Below are positions 2,434-10,205 of a stretch of 64,000 bases of DNA, in pieces. The DNA is from Solirubrobacter pauli. GTDB taxonomy: Bacteria > Actinomycetota > Thermoleophilia > Solirubrobacterales > Solirubrobacteraceae. The notes beneath the pieces are model-generated. The model did not search any database and was not told where the DNA came from. It saw only the letters and a list, made by a program, of their open reading frames with translations. The DNA is taken from assembly GCF_003633755.1 (NCBI RefSeq), contig NZ_RBIL01000002.1, positions 2,232,001 to 2,296,000 of the forward strand, read 5' to 3'. Position numbers and translations under genes: made by a program. How positions within the stretch are numbered: position 1 is the first letter of the stretch; every line of letters begins with the position of its first letter.

Positions 2434-3426
2434 CTAGCGCGCGGCCGGCTCCGAATCGGCCACGCGGACCGCGTTGCGGCCGTCGTGCTTGGCGCGGTAC
2501 AGGGCGCGATCCGCCGACTCGACCAAGTCGTGGTCCGCGTCGCGCGGGACCTGCGCCGCCACGCCCGCGGAGATGGTGATCGGCACGGGGCCGCCGCCCC
2601 GTTCGACCGCCACGCGCACGCGCTCGGCGAGCTCCTGGGCGCCCCGGATGCCGGTGCCGGGCAGCAGCACGACGAACTCCTCGCCGCCGACGCGGGCGGT
2701 GACGTCGGCGCCGCGGGTCGCGTGCGCGAGGGTCTTGGCGACCCACTGGAGGACGCGGTCGCCGACCTCGTGGCCGTGCTCGTCGTTGACGCGCTTGAAG
2801 TGGTCGATGTCGAAGGCGGCGGCCGCCAGCGACGACTGGTCGCGCATCGCCCGCGCGGTCTCGGCGGTGAGGCGCTCGTCGAAGCCGCGGCGGTTGTGGA
2901 GCTGGGTCAGCGGGTCCACGCGCGCTTCGGTCGAGAGCTGGGCGACGAGGCGTTCGTTGCGGGCCGCGAGCACGCGCACGACGACGCCCGCCACGATCAC
3001 CGTGACCACGACGTCGACCCAGCGGTCCGGGCTGGCGGCGCCGTCAGCCAGGGCGAGCAACGCGGCGCCGTGCACGACGCCGACCCAGCCGACGACCGCG
3101 GCCGTCGCGCGCGTGCCGTAGAAGGACGCCACCCACAGCACGGGCCAGCAGTAGACGATCGCGGCGTCCGAGTAGCCGCGCGTCGTGCCGACCGCCACGC
3201 CGACGACGGTCGCGCCCACGAACCCGAACGCCAGGAACGCGCTGCGCGGCAGCCCCTGGCCGACCGTGATCGCGATGGCCGCGAGCGCCAGCGCGGTCAG
3301 CGCCGGCCAGGGCGAGAACTCCGGTCCCTCGGGGAGCAGCTCCTCGAGCGCGCCGATCGCCCCCGCGGCGACGCACATCGCCGCCGCGCTGTAGACGAGG
3401 GGCCGCTCAGCCGGGCGCCTCGGCAT
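2434..3426 (-). CDS. Membrane diguanylate cyclase (GGDEF)
   Basis: 330 residues. About five N-terminal membrane helices (residues 10-155) act as a MASE-like input region, followed by a GGDEF domain with an intact GGEEF active site (G-G-E-E-F). An RxxD inhibitory site (RGAD) stands five residues before GGEEF, so the enzyme should be a feedback-inhibited producer of c-di-GMP at the membrane. ATG 3426 was chosen because a purine-rich GGGGGA stands just before it; a GTG at 3450 is the alternative. Either start overlaps the upstream GGDEF-EAL gene (stop at 3407), indicating coupled expression. Confidence 0.88.
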   Translation of the reverse strand: MPRRPAERPLVYSAAAMCVAAGAIGALEELLPEGPEFSPWPALTALALAAIAITVGQGLPRSAFLAFGFVGATVVGVAVGTTRGYSDAAIVYCWPVLWVASFYGTRATAAVVGWVGVVHGAALLALADGAASPDRWVDVVVTVIVAGVVVRVLAARNERLVAQLSTEARVDPLTQLHNRRGFDERLTAETARAMRDQSSLAAAAFDIDHFKRVNDEHGHEVGDRVLQWVAKTLAHATRGADVTARVGGEEFVVLLPGTGIRGAQELAERVRVAVERGGGPVPITISAGVAAQVPRDADHDLVESADRALYRAKHDGRNAVRVADSEPAAR

Positions 3427-5233
3427 CGGGTCCCCCGGTCTCCCACACACGATCGAGCAGCGGCACCAGCTCGTCCACCGGCAGCGGACGGGCGAGGTGG
3501 TAGCCCTGGCCGACGTCGCACCCGCTCTCCGCGAGCTGCGCGAGCTGGCACGCCGTCTCGATGCCTTCCCCGACCGTCCGCAGCCCGAGCGCCGCCGCCA
3601 TGCCGGTGATCGCCTCCAGCAGCGCGCGGGCGCGCGCGTCCGACTCCAGCCCCGCCACGAAGCCGCGGTCGATCTTCAGCACGTCCAGCGGGAAGCGCGA
3701 CAGGTAGCTGAGCGCCGAGTAGCCGGTGCCGAAGTCGTCGAGCGCGATCTGCACGCCGAGCTCGCGCAACGCCGTCATCGAGCGCGTGTACGCCGGCCGG
3801 TCGTCGAGCAGCACGCGCTCGGTGATCTCCAGCGTCAGCGCGCCCGGCGGGACCCCATGGGCCGTGAGGATCGCGCCGACCCGCTCCGCGAACGTCGCGT
3901 TGCGCAGCTGGATCGGCGCGACGTTGACCGACACCGTCACCTCCGCGCCCTTGCGCCAGGCCGCCAGGTCCTCCGCCGCCCGCTCGAGCACCCACTCGCC
4001 CATGGCGACGATCGCGCCGGTGCGCTCGGCGACCGGGATGAACTCGTCCGGCCGAACCGCACCCAGCTCGGGATGCGTCCACCGCAGCAGCGCCTCGAAG
4101 CCCTTCAGCCCGCCACCGCGCAGGTCGACCAGCGGCTGGTAGACCACCACCAGCTCGTCGCGCTCGGCCACGCCGTGCAACGCCTGCTGAAGCCGCAGCC
4201 GGCGCGTCGCGCGGGCACGTCGCTCCGGGTCGGCACGGCCCGACCGCGGCGCGGCGCCGCGCTTGCGATGGGCGAGCGCGTCGACCGCCGCGTCGATCAG
4301 GTCGTCCGCCGACACGACGCTGCTCGCGGCGGCGACGCCGACGGTCGCGGACACCGGCACCGCATGCTCGTCGACCAGGTGCGGCACACCGGCCAGCTCG
4401 GCCTTGAGCCGGTCGCAGATCATCTCCGCCTCGGCCTCGTCGTCGAGCGCGTCGCACAGGATCAGGAACTCGTCGCCCGCGAGCCGGCAGGCGGCGTCGC
4501 CGCTGCGCAGCCCCGCGGCGAGCCGCTCGGCGACCGACCGCAGCAGCGCGTCCCCCGCCTCGTGCCCGAGCGCGTCGTTGACGAGCCGGAACCCGTCGAG
4601 CCCGACCGCCAGCACCGCGCACGCCCGGCCGCCGCGCGCGGCCCGCGCGATCGACCGCGCGACGAGCTCGCCGAACAGCCCGCGGCCCGCCAGCCCGGTC
4701 AGCGGGTCGCGCAGGTCACGCACACCGGAGCGCCGCAGCTCCAGCACGTCGACGGCGAGCGCGGCCAAGTCCTCGAGCAGCCGCACCTCGCGGTCGTCCC
4801 AGCGGTGCGGCACCTTGTCGATCGCGCAGAACGCCCCGAGCGTCTCCCCGCCCGCCAACGTCAGCGGCACGCCCGCGTAGGCCATCACCCCATAGTCCCG
4901 TACGCCGGCGTTCCCCGCCAGCAGGGCCGACTCGCGCGTGTCGTCGACCACGAGCGGCGCCTGCCGCTCGACCACGTGCCGGCAGCACGAGTGCGACAGC
5001 GGCGTCTCGCGCTCGACGTCCAACGGCGGCTCCAGCCCGCTCGCGCCCGGGATGTGCTGGCGGTCGGCAGCGATCAGCGTCACGAGCGAGATCGGCACGC
5101 CCAGCAGCTCCCCCGCCAACCGCGCGAGCCGCTCCAGGGTGGGATCGGGGTCGCCGTCGAGCAGCCCCACGTCCCGCAGTGCGCTCAACCGGGCGCTCTC
5201 GTCAGCGATCTCCACCTGTTGGTCTATCCGCAC
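3407..5233 (-). CDS. GAF-GGDEF-EAL protein, probable c-di-GMP phosphodiesterase
   Basis: 608 residues with an N-terminal GAF domain (about 15-165), a GGDEF domain (about 175-325) and an EAL domain (about 350-595). The cyclase motif is degenerate (LAGDEF instead of GGDEF). The EAL domain has all recognisable catalytic motifs: EALLRW, SVNVAPIQL, LEITE, DDFGTGYS, LKID, EGIE and GQGY. This predicts hydrolysis of c-di-GMP, with the GAF and dead GGDEF as regulatory inputs. GTG 5233 begins 40 bases after the OmpR-type regulator stop, and the 3' end overlaps the diguanylate cyclase gene, so opposing enzymes are co-transcribed. Confidence 0.9.
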   Translation of the reverse strand: MRIDQQVEIADESARLSALRDVGLLDGDPDPTLERLARLAGELLGVPISLVTLIAADRQHIPGASGLEPPLDVERETPLSHSCCRHVVERQAPLVVDDTRESALLAGNAGVRDYGVMAYAGVPLTLAGGETLGAFCAIDKVPHRWDDREVRLLEDLAALAVDVLELRRSGVRDLRDPLTGLAGRGLFGELVARSIARAARGGRACAVLAVGLDGFRLVNDALGHEAGDALLRSVAERLAAGLRSGDAACRLAGDEFLILCDALDDEAEAEMICDRLKAELAGVPHLVDEHAVPVSATVGVAAASSVVSADDLIDAAVDALAHRKRGAAPRSGRADPERRARATRRLRLQQALHGVAERDELVVVYQPLVDLRGGGLKGFEALLRWTHPELGAVRPDEFIPVAERTGAIVAMGEWVLERAAEDLAAWRKGAEVTVSVNVAPIQLRNATFAERVGAILTAHGVPPGALTLEITERVLLDDRPAYTRSMTALRELGVQIALDDFGTGYSALSYLSRFPLDVLKIDRGFVAGLESDARARALLEAITGMAAALGLRTVGEGIETACQLAQLAESGCDVGQGYHLARPLPVDELVPLLDRVWETGGPDAEAPG

Positions 5234-5273: not shown

Positions 5274-6008
5274 TCAAGGAGACCGAACAGGGAATCCTGA
5301 GGCCGGCGGTCCGTCCACCAGCCGGTAGCCGACGCCCCACACGTTGACCACGAACTCGTCCCCGTCGGCGCGCAGCTTCTGCCGCAGCCGGCACGCGTGC
5401 GAGTCCAGCGTGCGGGTCGATCCCGCCGCCCGGAACCCCCAGACGTCACGCAGCAGCTCGTCCTTGGTGAAGACCCGCGTCGGCGCCGAGGCGAGCGTCC
5501 GCAGCAGCGCGAACTCCTTCGCGGCCAGCTCCACCCGGACGCCGCGGACGGTCGCCGCGCGCCCCGCCGGGTCGATCTCCAGCGACCCGACCCGCAGCGT
5601 CCCGAGCTGCACGCGCGTCCGTGCCCGCCGCAGCACGGCGTCGATCCGCAGCCGCAGCTCCGGGTAGGCGAAGGGCTTGACCACGTAGTCGTCGGCGCCG
5701 CGCTCGAGCCCACGGACGCGGTCCAGCTCCTCCCCCGCTCCCGAGAGCAGGAGGATCGGCAGCGTCGGGTCCAGCCGCGAGGCGACGCCGTCCGAGGCGC
5801 GCACGCGCCGCAGCAGGTCCAGGCCGGAGCCGTCCGGGAGCTGCACGTCGAAGACGGCGAGGTCCGGGCGGGAGCGCTCGAGCGTGCGCCCGGCGTCTTC
5901 GACGGTCTCGGCGACGAGCACGTCGTAGCCGTCGGCGGTGAGGTTGTCGGCGAGGAAGAGCCGGATCACCGGGTCGTCCTCGAGCAGCAGGAGCGTGGCG
6001 GGTTCCAT
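5274..6008 (-). CDS. OmpR/PhoB-type response regulator
   Basis: 244 residues. The receiver has the acidic pair EDD (10-12), phospho-acceptor Asp54 in VFDVQLPDG, and the conserved Lys in VVKPF. A winged-helix DNA-binding domain follows (TRVFTKDELLRDVWG ... VWGVGYRLVDG). It heads an apparent minus-strand operon with the GAF-GGDEF-EAL protein and the diguanylate cyclase, and probably the histidine kinase at 1263-2330. The start codon directly follows a 14-bp inverted repeat shared with that kinase gene, which suggests common control. A TAGTTT hexamer about 25 bases upstream is a possible -10. Confidence 0.92.
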   Translation of the reverse strand: MEPATLLLLEDDPVIRLFLADNLTADGYDVLVAETVEDAGRTLERSRPDLAVFDVQLPDGSGLDLLRRVRASDGVASRLDPTLPILLLSGAGEELDRVRGLERGADDYVVKPFAYPELRLRIDAVLRRARTRVQLGTLRVGSLEIDPAGRAATVRGVRVELAAKEFALLRTLASAPTRVFTKDELLRDVWGFRAAGSTRTLDSHACRLRQKLRADGDEFVVNVWGVGYRLVDGPPASGFPVRSP

Positions 6009-7113: not shown

Positions 7114-7581
7114 ATGGATCAGATTCGCCGCGGCAACTACGACTCCGGCCAGGACTACGTCCTGGAGTACGGAGACCTCCGGTTCACGTTCAACGAACGT
7201 GACTTCTCCGAGCGCGTCGAGCAGGCCGCGCACAAGCTGGGCTTCGTCGGGAACCACCTCGAGGAGACCGAGCTCGAGGACCTTGTGAACCTCACCGTCA
7301 ACGGTGAGGTCGTCGATCCCGCCTCCGGCCTCGGGGAGCACGTCAACGACTGCTGGCCCGACCTCGTCGGCCCGGCGGACCGCTCGCTCGTGCACTGGCT
7401 GCGCCGGCTCGTCTTCCGCTCCGCCTGGCTGGACCAGCGCGTGAAGGAAGGCGAGCTCGACGTGGTCTTCGACGACGCGACGCACACGTTCGGCTACGTC
7501 CAGCCCGAGCGCGATCGTGAGCCGATCGAGCTCTCGCCAGAGCCGAGTTGGCGCCGCGTCGCCTACGGCCCGCGCCCTTGA
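7114..7581 (+). CDS. Conserved-looking hypothetical protein
   Basis: 155 residues, acidic and soluble, with no signal peptide or membrane helix; not a family I recognise. The sequence is well ordered (YVLEYGDLRFTFNERDF, then a tryptophan-rich HWLRRLVFRSAWLDQR segment), so it is unlikely to be a spurious ORF. ATG 7114 is preferred over ATG 7075 because the latter sits inside the -10 hexamer and its extra codons coincide with a perfect inverted repeat. The stop codon overlaps the first copy of a dispersed repeat (7580-7615), followed by a strong terminator shared with the convergent Rho-like gene. Confidence 0.7.
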   Translation: MDQIRRGNYDSGQDYVLEYGDLRFTFNERDFSERVEQAAHKLGFVGNHLEETELEDLVNLTVNGEVVDPASGLGEHVNDCWPDLVGPADRSLVHWLRRLVFRSAWLDQRVKEGELDVVFDDATHTFGYVQPERDREPIELSPEPSWRRVAYGPRP

Positions 7582-7646: not shown

Positions 7647-9236
7647 CTAGGAGGCGGCGGGCTTCTTGCGGGCCGCCGGCTTGCGCTTGGCCGTCGACGC
7701 GGCCGGCTTCTTCGCGGCGGCCGTCTTGCGCGCGGCCGCGGGCTTCTTCGCCGCCGTCTTCGTCGCGGCGGCCGGCTTCTTGGCGGCCGTCTTCGTCGCG
7801 GCGGGCTTCTTGGCCGCGGTCTTCGTCGCGGCCGGCTTGCGCTTGGCGGCGGGCTTGCGCTTCGGCGTCGCCGCCTCGGGCGCGGGCTCGGCGACGGCCT
7901 CGACGGCCGCGGCCGCCTCGACCACCGGCTCCGCCTCGGCCTTGGCCTTCGGCTTGGCCTTGGCCTTCGGCTCGGGCTTGGGCTTGGCCTTCGGCTTGGG
8001 CTTCGGGGCGACGAACTCGCCGCCGGCGGTCGCGGAGCGGATCGCCTCCACGCCCGCCTCGCCGACGAGCAGCTCGGCGCGCAGCACGCCCGAGTCCGCG
8101 AGCGACAGCGCCGGGAACGTGCCGAGCGCGGCCAGCGAGCGGTCCAGCGCGACGAGCGTCGTCTCACCGCCGACGGGCGCCGGCGACGTGGCGACGATGG
8201 TCAGCGAGCCGCCGCCGGCCAGGTTGCGGGCGGCCGCGAGCGCGCGCCGGGCGGCGCTGGACGGCAGGTACTCGAAGCCGTCGATGAGTAGCACGGCGTC
8301 CCCGCCACGCGCGGCGACGCGGCGGCCGGTCTCGACCGCCTGCTCGACGGCCTGCGCCTGCGCGTCCGCCGAGGCGGCGAACGTCAGCACGGCGCTCGGC
8401 TCGACGGCCCAGTCCGCGGCCTCCTCCGGACGCACGCCCGTGAGGACGACGCTGACCTCGAGGCCCTCCTGATCCACCAGCGCGGCCGCGAGGCGACGCA
8501 GCGCCTCGGTCTTGCCCGAGCGCGACGCGCCGGCGATGACGACGCGCGAGCCCTTGCCGAACGGGGTCAGCCACTCGATCGCGGTGACCGTGGCGTCGTC
8601 GGAGCCGAGCGCGATCCGCTCGTCCGGCCACGCGACGGCGAGGTCCTCGAAGCGCGTGCCCTCGGCGACCTCGTCGGCCGGGCGGCCGTTGATGGTGTCG
8701 ACGCGGACGAGCGACGGGAAGCGCTCGGAGCGGCGCGCGGCGCGCACCGGGCCGCTGATCTTGTCGCCCGAGACGAGCTCGCAGCGCTTGACCTGGGCGG
8801 CCGAGATGTAGATGTCGTCGTCGGACGCCTCGGTGCCGAGCACGCGCAGGAAGCCGGAGCCGTTGGCGAGCAGCTCGACGGTGCCCTCGGCGAGCTTGTC
8901 CTCGGCGGCGCCGTTGGAGCGCTCCTCGGCGACGGGCTCGCGGTCGCGGTCGCGGCCGGAGTCGGCGGCGCCGTTCTCGTCTTCGTCGCGGCGACGGCCA
9001 CGGCCACCGCGGCGGCCACGGCGGGAACGCTTGGGCGAGTCGTCCTCATCAGCACCGGTGGCGGCGGCCACGGGCTCCGCGGCGACGGCCTCCCCACCCT
9101 GGCGGGCGAGGATCGCGTCCACGAGGTCAGGCTTGCGAAGGCGGCGGAAGCCGTCGACCCCAAGCTCGTTGGCGAGCGTGTGCAGGTCGGCGAGCGGGCT
9201 TTGCTCCAAGGCGGAGCGGTCCAGGACAGTCGGCAT
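7647..9236 (-). CDS. Rho-like ATPase with altered active site and histone-H1-like tail
   Basis: 529 residues. An N-terminal Rho_N helical domain (2-47) is followed by an Arg/Asp-rich linker, an RNA-binding cold-shock-like domain (about 115-185) and a RecA-type core with Walker A GASRSGKTE (about residue 235). It ends in a 130-residue Lys/Ala/Pro tail of TAAKKPAA repeats like histone H1. Compared with E. coli Rho from memory, the segment ERPEE is VRPEE here (catalytic Glu211 replaced). The DSITR motif is DGFEYL and the Q-loop stretch is missing before ARNLAGGGSLTIVAT. It may bind RNA or DNA without normal translocation. RBS GAGGAGA lies four bases before the ATG. A canonical rho elsewhere in the genome is expected but not seen here. 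Confidence 0.8.
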   Translation of the reverse strand: MPTVLDRSALEQSPLADLHTLANELGVDGFRRLRKPDLVDAILARQGGEAVAAEPVAAATGADEDDSPKRSRRGRRGGRGRRRDEDENGAADSGRDRDREPVAEERSNGAAEDKLAEGTVELLANGSGFLRVLGTEASDDDIYISAAQVKRCELVSGDKISGPVRAARRSERFPSLVRVDTINGRPADEVAEGTRFEDLAVAWPDERIALGSDDATVTAIEWLTPFGKGSRVVIAGASRSGKTEALRRLAAALVDQEGLEVSVVLTGVRPEEAADWAVEPSAVLTFAASADAQAQAVEQAVETGRRVAARGGDAVLLIDGFEYLPSSAARRALAAARNLAGGGSLTIVATSPAPVGGETTLVALDRSLAALGTFPALSLADSGVLRAELLVGEAGVEAIRSATAGGEFVAPKPKPKAKPKPEPKAKAKPKAKAEAEPVVEAAAAVEAVAEPAPEAATPKRKPAAKRKPAATKTAAKKPAATKTAAKKPAAATKTAAKKPAAARKTAAAKKPAASTAKRKPAARKKPAAS

Positions 9237-9302: not shown

Positions 9303-10205
9303 TCAGCCTAGCGTCAAATGCGGTGGCACACCGTCCGGATAGCGCTCGGGCGACAGGCCTTCGAGCGGCTCGAGCACCCGTTCGCCGCGCAACACGGCGC
9401 GCACGTTGAAGAAGTCACGCGCCCCCGCGACGTCGTGCACGCGCAGGATCGACGCCCCGTGCTCGACGCCATGCGCGAGCGCCGCCAGGGTCCCCGGATC
9501 CCGCTCCGCAGGCGACTTCCGCGTGATCGCGCCGACGAAGTCCTTGCGCGAGGCCGCGAGCAGGATCGGGCGCCCAAGCGCCGCGATCGCGTCCAGCCGG
9601 CGCAGGATCGCGACCGTCTGCGCGGGCGTCTTGGCGAAGTCCGGCCCCGGGTCGAGCACGAGCTGCTCGTCGGCCACGCCCGCGGCGCGCGCGACCGTCA
9701 TCCGCTCCGTCAGGAAGGCGACGACCTCCCCCACCACGTCCGCGTACGTCGCCGGGTCCAGCAGCGTTCCCTTGGGAGCGACCGCGGTGTGCATGAGCAC
9801 GAGCCCGGCGCCGGTCGCGGCGACCACCTCGGCCAGCCGCGGGTCGCGCAGCCCGGACACGTCGTTGACGATCGACGCGCCCGCCGCGATCGCCGCCTCC
9901 GCCACCTCGGGCTTGTAGGTGTCGACGGAGATCAGCGCCTCGCCGGCCAGCGCGCCGATCAGCCCGCAGACGCGCTCGATCTCCTCCCCGACGCTCACCG
10001 CCGGGCGGTCGCCGCGCGCCGACTCGCCGCCGATGTCCAGCAGGTCCGCCCCGGCCGCGATCAGCGCGCGCCCCCGCTCCACGCGCGCCGTCAGCGGCTC
10101 CTCCCCGCGCTCCTCCGAGAACGAGTCCGGCGTCGCGTTGAGGATGCCCATCAGGAGCGGGCGCGCGCCGAGCTCGATGCGCCGCGTGCCCGCCCGCAGG
10201 ATCAC
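9303..10205 (-). CDS. folP: Dihydropteroate synthase
   Basis: 300 residues. Joins p-aminobenzoate to the pterin pyrophosphate in folate synthesis (TIM barrel, cytosol). Signature motifs are all visible: GILNATPDSFS, LLDIGGESARG, NDVSG, LDPGPDFAKT, ASRKDF and RVHDV. GTG 10205 overlaps the stop of the upstream secreted-propeller gene as GTGA, so the two are translationally coupled although functionally unrelated. Other folate genes are not in the window. The much longer in-frame extension on this strand is the shadow of the upstream gene. Confidence 0.95.
   Translation of the reverse strand: MILRAGTRRIELGARPLLMGILNATPDSFSEERGEEPLTARVERGRALIAAGADLLDIGGESARGDRPAVSVGEEIERVCGLIGALAGEALISVDTYKPEVAEAAIAAGASIVNDVSGLRDPRLAEVVAATGAGLVLMHTAVAPKGTLLDPATYADVVGEVVAFLTERMTVARAAGVADEQLVLDPGPDFAKTPAQTVAILRRLDAIAALGRPILLAASRKDFVGAITRKSPAERDPGTLAALAHGVEHGASILRVHDVAGARDFFNVRAVLRGERVLEPLEGLSPERYPDGVPPHLTLG

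Follow-up and report, generated by a model that had tools for sequence, protein, structure and literature searches.

A sole Rho-type protein of Solirubrobacter pauli that appears to have given up its motor and kept its RNA-binding site and ATP pocket

The locus and its domain architecture

Rho is a near-universal motor that ends bacterial transcription. In a stretch of 64,000 nucleotides from the soil actinobacterium Solirubrobacter pauli (assembly GCF_003633755.1, contig NZ_RBIL01000002.1, positions 2,232,001 to 2,296,000; hereafter the window) we analyzed a gene for a Rho-type protein of 529 amino acids (aa) in which several residues of the motor are replaced or missing. We refer to this protein and its relatives in the same order as pseudo-Rho. 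The frame runs on the minus strand from an ATG at 9236 to a stop codon at 7649-7647, and is preceded just 5' of the ATG by a Shine-Dalgarno-like GAGGAG; the extent given in the original prediction, 7647-9236, is therefore right, with the strand to be read as minus (9236..7647). Pfam searches recover the Rho_N and Rho_RNA_bind domains in the order of canonical Rho and give a weak match only to the RecA-like ATPase domain. The protein scores below the cut-offs of both full-length Rho models, with 165.7 bits against 509.45 for TIGR00767 and 175.8 bits against 315 for PRK09376. The features of the locus, including order and disorder predicted with AlphaFold2 (AF2) and scored as predicted local distance difference test (pLDDT), are as follows:

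7647..9236, minus strand: pseudo-Rho gene, 529 aa, intact ATG, the sole Rho-type gene found in the genome
9093..9215, minus strand: Rho_N helical domain, aa 8-48 (PF07498 match over residues 10-46, E 2.5e-8; AF2 pLDDT mostly >95)
8901..9092, minus strand: disordered linker, aa 49-112, rich in Arg (13 of its 64 residues) and for the most part at pLDDT 41-55
8676..8900, minus strand: OB-fold primary RNA-binding site, aa 113-187 (Rho_RNA_bind, PF07497, match 117-187, E 7.4e-21), with the equivalents of R88, R102, E108, Y80, F64 and R66 kept
8013..8675, minus strand: Rho-type RecA-like core, aa 188-408, without the catalytic Glu, the Q-loop, a canonical R-loop and the canonical Arg-finger residue
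8508..8531, minus strand: Walker A GASRSGKT, aa 236-243, kept
8421..8435, minus strand: VRPEE, aa 268-272, with Val in place of the catalytic Glu and the Arg valve kept
8274..8300, minus strand: Walker B DAVLLIDGF, aa 313-321, Asp kept and DSITR lost; the missing Q-loop would follow directly
8157..8171, minus strand: GGETT, aa 356-360 (alignment columns 337-341), near-invariant in the window's family, which at this place lacks most of the R-loop
8067..8093, minus strand: SGVLRAELL, aa 382-390 (canonical SGTRKEELL), with Leu at the Arg-finger position
7650..8012, minus strand: tail, aa 409-529, disordered and H1-like, rich in Lys, Ala and Pro, with a net charge of +28 and restricted to the genus
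7117..7578, plus strand: conserved uncharacterised 154-aa protein, convergent neighbour used as synteny anchor
9306..10175, minus strand: folP (dihydropteroate synthase), upstream of pseudo-Rho on the same strand; a fragment was used for selection analysis

The Arg-rich linker sits where other actinobacterial Rho proteins carry their N-terminal insertion. A scan for sigma-70-type promoters and terminators gave no result, and the Rfam and tRNA scans gave no match. Near the locus, a gene for a GAF-GGDEF-EAL protein (3407-5233, minus strand) adjoins one for a response regulator (5274-6008, minus strand).

Loss of the motor residues

Residues were compared in E. coli Rho numbering over an alignment of 40 of the 56 pseudo-Rho matches from the window's own family (f1), 10 of the 16 from f2 and 10 of the 13 from f3, together with 29 canonical relatives from the class; f1-f4 denote the families of the window's order. 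A frameshifted copy (L092, from genome G258) and one with an internal stop (L033) were excluded, as was an over-long frame (L047) from later alignments. The names of K184, E211, R212 and K326 follow PMC8828861, and R366 was identified from R541 of the same source by a constant offset of 175. In the window protein the E. coli motif DERPEE reads GVRPEE, which places Val at the catalytic Glu211, and DSITR reads DGFEY; it has nothing corresponding to residues 272-293 (the Q-loop region) or to 321-333, which form most of the R-loop. The original prediction had thus correctly read the replaced Glu before RPEE and the loss of DSITR and the Q-loop, alongside a retained RNA-binding domain and Walker A.

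All 29 canonical relatives keep Lys184, Glu211, Arg212, Asp265, Arg269, the Q-loop, Arg353, Arg366 and a canonical R-loop. None of the 60 pseudo-Rho proteins has residues 276-292 of the Q-loop, an Arg at 366 or a canonical R-loop, residues 321-333 being absent throughout f1 (40/40) and, for the most part, missing or substituted in f2 and f3. Position 211 in f1 is Val in 31 proteins, Ala in 8 and Thr in one, so that Glu is lost in all 40, and the preceding Asp210 has become Gly (37) or Ala (3). The ring-closure residues R128 and K130, so named in PMC11018626, are Ala, Ser or Val and mostly Gly, respectively, in this family. The nucleotide pocket of f1 is kept, with the Walker A Lys184 in 38 of 40 (Arg in two), the Walker B Asp265 in all 40 and the Arg valve R212 in 39 (Leu in one). 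In f3 both Lys184 and Glu211 are lost (10/10 each), and f2 has likewise lost Lys184 (10/10). As all 60 pseudo-Rho proteins share the absence of the Q-loop and of Arg366, these losses are, on the alignment, best placed in their common ancestor. That the catalytic changes are common to all 40 f1 proteins, and that each of the three genus genomes read has the tail, indicates that these features did not arise by chance. The residue pattern makes it very probable that the Rho motor is dead in pseudo-Rho, and lends good support to the earlier description of a non-translocating RNA-binding protein. With the catalytic Glu, the Arg-finger position, the Q-loop and the R-loop gone, normal ATPase activity is unlikely.

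The RNA-binding site and the basic tail

The residues of the primary RNA-binding site are retained in f1: Phe64 in 35 of 40, Arg66 in 33 with Lys in the other 7, Tyr80 in 39, Arg102 in 40 and Glu108 in 39. Arg88 of the extended site, whose charge reversal abolishes RNA binding by E. coli Rho, is Arg in 60/60 pseudo-Rho proteins, and the position of Lys115, where charge reversal weakens binding, is Arg in 40/40 f1 proteins (mutant effects as given in PMC11018626). According to the same source, the N-terminal domains of E. coli Rho contact RNA polymerase (RNAP), NusA and NusG before RNA is bound, and it is this part that pseudo-Rho retains; NusG is present in the window genome. Taken together, the residues suggest that RNA binding has probably been retained by pseudo-Rho.

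The TAAKKPAA-type repeats and H1-like composition reported for the C-terminus are indeed seen over aa 409-529, where 121 residues include 44 Ala, 30 Lys and 19 Pro. This tail, predicted by AF2 to be disordered, is long only in the window's genus, namely in the window genome, G232 and Solirubrobacter phytolaccae (3/3 genus genomes read); a second genus, g13 (L052, L054), has a shorter basic tail, and the remaining f1 proteins stop about 17-30 residues past the core, most with about 18 ordinary residues and no tail. A conserved function of pseudo-Rho residing in the tail was ruled out on this distribution, by which the tail is an addition to the protein and cannot explain why the gene is kept across the order.

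Predicted structure

The AF2 model of the window protein has a pLDDT of at least 90 for 310 of 529 residues. A VIA-align search with this model returned Rho chains in all of the top 23 rows (Z 25.6-30.8), followed by F1-ATPase rows (Z ~21-22), and the 14 matches of the window protein among solved structures are all Rho chains. The predicted core thus has the fold of Rho.

Phyletic distribution and orthology

Searched against the window genome (7.1 Mb in 4 contigs, completeness 96.5%), the Rho RNA-binding domain PF07497 retrieved this gene alone, and no canonical rho was found in that assembly with either PF07497 or TIGR00767. The other TIGR00767 matches cover the ATPase half only, starting at profile position 150 or beyond; presumably these are F1/FliI-type ATPases. 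The original prediction had proposed a paralogue and suggested looking for the canonical gene. These searches rule out a paralogue beside a canonical rho, and the gene does stand as the only Rho found in the genome. Among named relatives S. phytolaccae is the closest (88% identity), and its orthologue bears the same tail.

Across the phylum 249 of 296 genomes have a Rho above the model cut-off. Of 299 genomes of the class only 45 do, none of them in f1-f4, and 56 of 59 f1 genomes have a Rho below it. With a profile built from proteins of the order itself, 148 of its 151 genomes give a match (137 at E <1e-29), as do all 97 of good quality. The same profile, run on 36 genomes outside the order (34 from f5, f7, f10 and f11, families without canonical Rho, and two from f9), reaches no more than 60 bits, with this match in the ATPase region, and also finds short Rho_N matches. 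Where a genome of the order shows no clear match (e.g. G228, G284, G180, G240 and G294), the neighbour gene is missing too, and in G202 that gene gives no more than a weak partial match; assembly gaps are therefore likely in these genomes.

In the phylogenetic tree (52 of 90 rows, 378 columns) f1, f2 and f3 form one clade (support 100/100, stem 0.83) in which each family is a clade and f1 is sister to f3, though the bootstrap is not fully settled and composition differs between the groups. Horizontal replacement is not supported, since each family forms a single clade. Among the 36 loci compared for synteny, the convergent neighbour adjoins 28 of 29 pseudo-rho genes, and a 2-phosphoglycerate-kinase-like gene with its own neighbours, found upstream of canonical rho, precedes pseudo-rho as well at some f3 loci and at two of the three f4 loci. 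By position and tree, pseudo-Rho is the orthologue of canonical rho and no paralogue. The 154-aa neighbour, which has no Pfam or NCBIfam match, occurs in 210 of 299 class genomes, its identity within the order being mostly 65-96%; a role as Rho partner was ruled out, as families lacking Rho have it and so do those with canonical Rho.

Several departures from the usual pattern were observed elsewhere. In family f36 of the phylum (G383, G495, G572, G582) Rho matches are weaker than usual (5.5e-81 to 2.1e-128), and this could be a second lineage with an altered Rho. In f9, two near-complete genomes of genus g51 (G012, G030) are without Rho and their genus-mates have the canonical form; canonical matches in f9 with in-frame TGA or TAA stops were seen at G018:C3:511221-512279, L033 and L029. 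In f11, a lineage without Rho, a Rho_N-like domain is fused to an enoyl-CoA hydratase (L157:6741-7598:+, L156:5870-6967:+) near the gene for 2-phosphoglycerate kinase, which in other lineages adjoins canonical rho, and f10 has short Rho_N matches (G181:C30, G015:C20).

Further dismantling within the order

In genera g35 and g36 of f2 the protein consists of Rho_N, an Arg-rich linker usually ending in 7-8 arginines and a core without a P-loop, the OB domain being gone; this is seen at five loci, one cut at a contig end, and in six more genomes with open frames of 273-422 aa. The AF2 model of a g35 protein still has a Rho-like core, its top VIA-align row being a Rho (Z 15.2, 140 aligned residues, root-mean-square deviation 2.3) and its F1 rows scoring 12-13. 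The single g34 genome codes for Rho_N and OB only, in 169 aa, and in the three f4 genomes read the OB is degenerate and the core carries Ala at Lys184. All these remnants lie at the syntenic rho site beside the same convergent neighbour, which rules out that Rho was simply lost in g34-g36 or in f4. Rho_N and basic regions recur across the order despite the differing domains, Rho_N alone being common to all forms.

Selection on pseudo-rho

The ratio of non-synonymous to synonymous substitution rates (dN/dS), estimated by simple counting and possibly distorted by very high GC, is 0.177 between the window gene and that of S. phytolaccae (Rho_N 0.05, linker 0.38, OB 0.23, core 0.11, tail 0.17) and 0.360 between the window gene and that of G232 (OB 0.75 on few changes, core 0.31). 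Thirteen further pseudo-rho pairs range from 0.04 to 0.47, so that the ratio is below 1 in 15/15 pairs. The values for folP of the same genomes (0.04-0.35) overlap those of pseudo-rho, which in turn lie above most of the four canonical Rho pairs (0.03-0.10). By this measure pseudo-rho is under ordinary purifying selection, looser than that on canonical Rho. It is no pseudogene, as the match in all 97 good genomes of the order and these ratios indicate.

Functional interpretation and alternatives

As far as sequence comparison can establish it, then, the gene is the only Rho and the orthologue of the canonical one, its motor residues are lost, its RNA-binding and Walker A/B residues are kept, and it is under purifying selection. 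We interpret the protein, at a probability of roughly 0.6, as a Rho pseudoenzyme in which the motor is lost and the RNA-binding site and ATP pocket persist. The ancestor of the order would have lost the ring motor (Q-loop, R-loop and Arg-finger position); f1 would then have lost the catalytic Glu while keeping the RNA-binding N-terminal domain and the ATP pocket. Since the motor parts are gone and the parts that grip RNA are kept, RNA, and in f1 also ATP, should be bound without movement along RNA: the OB domain would bind pyrimidine-rich nascent RNA, and the f1 protein would bind ATP without productive hydrolysis or translocation. The basic linker would contribute further, unspecific affinity for nucleic acids, as would the basic tail in Solirubrobacter. 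Given that in E. coli the N-terminal domain makes the contact with the elongation complex, a role without the motor is preferred, and we conjecture, tentatively and at less than even odds, that pseudo-Rho has its effect on nascent RNA or on the elongation complex, perhaps in pausing, attenuation or RNA chaperoning that needs no motor. For the order as a whole, we consider it slightly better than an even bet that the motor was given up and the sole Rho, as an ATP- and RNA-binding pseudoenzyme, was turned into a non-motor factor acting with the elongation complex and stripped in several independent ways (OB replaced by poly-Arg, ATPase deleted, P-loop erased), while other families of the class lost Rho entirely.

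Certain observations weigh against this interpretation. Phe62 of the primary site is Ser in 39 of 40 f1 proteins, so that RNA preference may be altered, and the degenerate or absent OB of f4 and g35/g36 means that RNA binding by this domain is not common to the whole order. Glu211 is kept in 9 of 10 f2 proteins, by which some catalytic residues survive in some lineages; in f1 an Arg directly follows the lost finger position (R367, 34/40), which leaves some doubt over the Arg-finger loss, as a shifted finger is possible. Coding-strand purine bias, tied to Rho in Bacilli in PMC13323073, is 0.507 in genomes with canonical Rho, 0.498 with pseudo-Rho and 0.497 with no Rho (40 stretches from 37 genomes, the last group including one f11 genome with the Rho_N fusion). 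The difference between canonical and pseudo-Rho is in the right direction (Mann-Whitney p 0.011, uncorrected for phylogeny) but loses significance once GC enters as a covariate (p 0.14).

A still-active, divergent motor that carries out ordinary Rho-dependent termination with substitute residues, such as an Arg367 finger, would explain why f1 keeps Walker A, the Walker B Asp and the Arg valve and why the sole Rho remains under selection; it would, however, have to work without the catalytic Glu in f1 and f3, without the Q-loop in any of the 60 proteins and, in f1, without residues 321-333 of the R-loop and with R128 and K130 replaced, and the Walker Lys is lost in 20/20 f2 and f3 proteins and the P-loop or entire ATPase domain in sister genera, all of which renders it very improbable. 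The opposite extreme, a slowly decaying relic of no important function, accords with the repeated and differing domain losses, the relaxed dN/dS relative to canonical Rho and the one frameshifted copy in G258. We judge it quite improbable in the face of a gene matched in every good genome of the order, dN/dS values that overlap those of folP, and new conserved motifs such as GGE[TS]T and C89.

The original prediction had further offered a nucleoid factor, and the strongly charged, KPAA-repeated tail, conserved in three Solirubrobacter genomes, does recall H1 and HupB. This idea depends on the tail of one genus, with a shorter form in another, while the whole order keeps the gene and most f1 members lack a tail; moreover, the conserved part is the RNA-binding OB site, and no HU or other dedicated DNA-binding domain was matched in the window protein by Pfam at E 1e-3, making a histone-like DNA-binding protein unlikely. 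F1-ATPase alpha subunits bind nucleotide and are noncatalytic. A kept P-loop with a lost catalytic Glu resembles this subunit beside F1 beta, and F1 chains are the next-best structural match, which together might point to a dominant-negative or noncatalytic subunit of a canonical Rho ring; as no canonical Rho was found in the genome to serve as partner, and one would have to lie hidden in the 3-4% left unassembled, this is extremely improbable.

Relation to known systems

With canonical Rho (TIGR00767; E. coli b3783) the window protein shares domain order, orthologous locus, primary-site residues, Walker A and B and predicted fold, and it differs in the lost Glu, Q-loop, canonical R-loop and Arg-finger position and in a replaced C-terminal region. 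NCBIfam NF041509 (paralog_Rho2, 'Rho, short form') likewise lies outside the main Rho model, but the window protein reaches 124.4 bits against its cut-off of 628 and no second copy is present. The likeness to HupB and H1-like nucleoid proteins is one of tail composition only, and F1-ATPase alpha, though a structural neighbour, differs in that the window protein has an RNA-binding OB and no catalytic partner in its genome. The Rho of M. tuberculosis (7oqh), described in PMC8828861 as a weak motor, is also actinobacterial with a long disordered N-terminal insertion; it keeps the catalytic Glu, Arg valve, Arg finger and Q-loop (same source), whereas the window protein lacks the Glu, the Q-loop and an Arg at the finger position. 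Rho-less Bacilli (PMC13323073) similarly have no working Rho, but there the gene was lost, while the order of Solirubrobacter keeps the protein throughout. The Rho of Bacteroides, reported to phase-separate (PMC10284900, PMC13269538), also has a lineage-specific disordered region, which those sources describe as raising termination activity, in contrast to the lost motor residues seen here. No paper on Rho in Solirubrobacter, Conexibacter or Thermoleophilia was found, and among papers on Rho loss, inactive Rho or Rho paralogues none came up with a title or opening of an abstract that describes such a protein, though an earlier notice in the standard survey of D'Heygere 2013 is possible.

Implications

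These results suggest that a basic piece of the gene-expression machinery was apparently dismantled and then reused. If true, this lineage would have dissected Rho naturally and would reveal the part that a cell needs. As a clade with cultured members that retains one rho copy, it allows tests of how pervasive transcription stops without a Rho motor, which Rho function is independent of the motor, and whether these cells may be naturally resistant to bicyclomycin.
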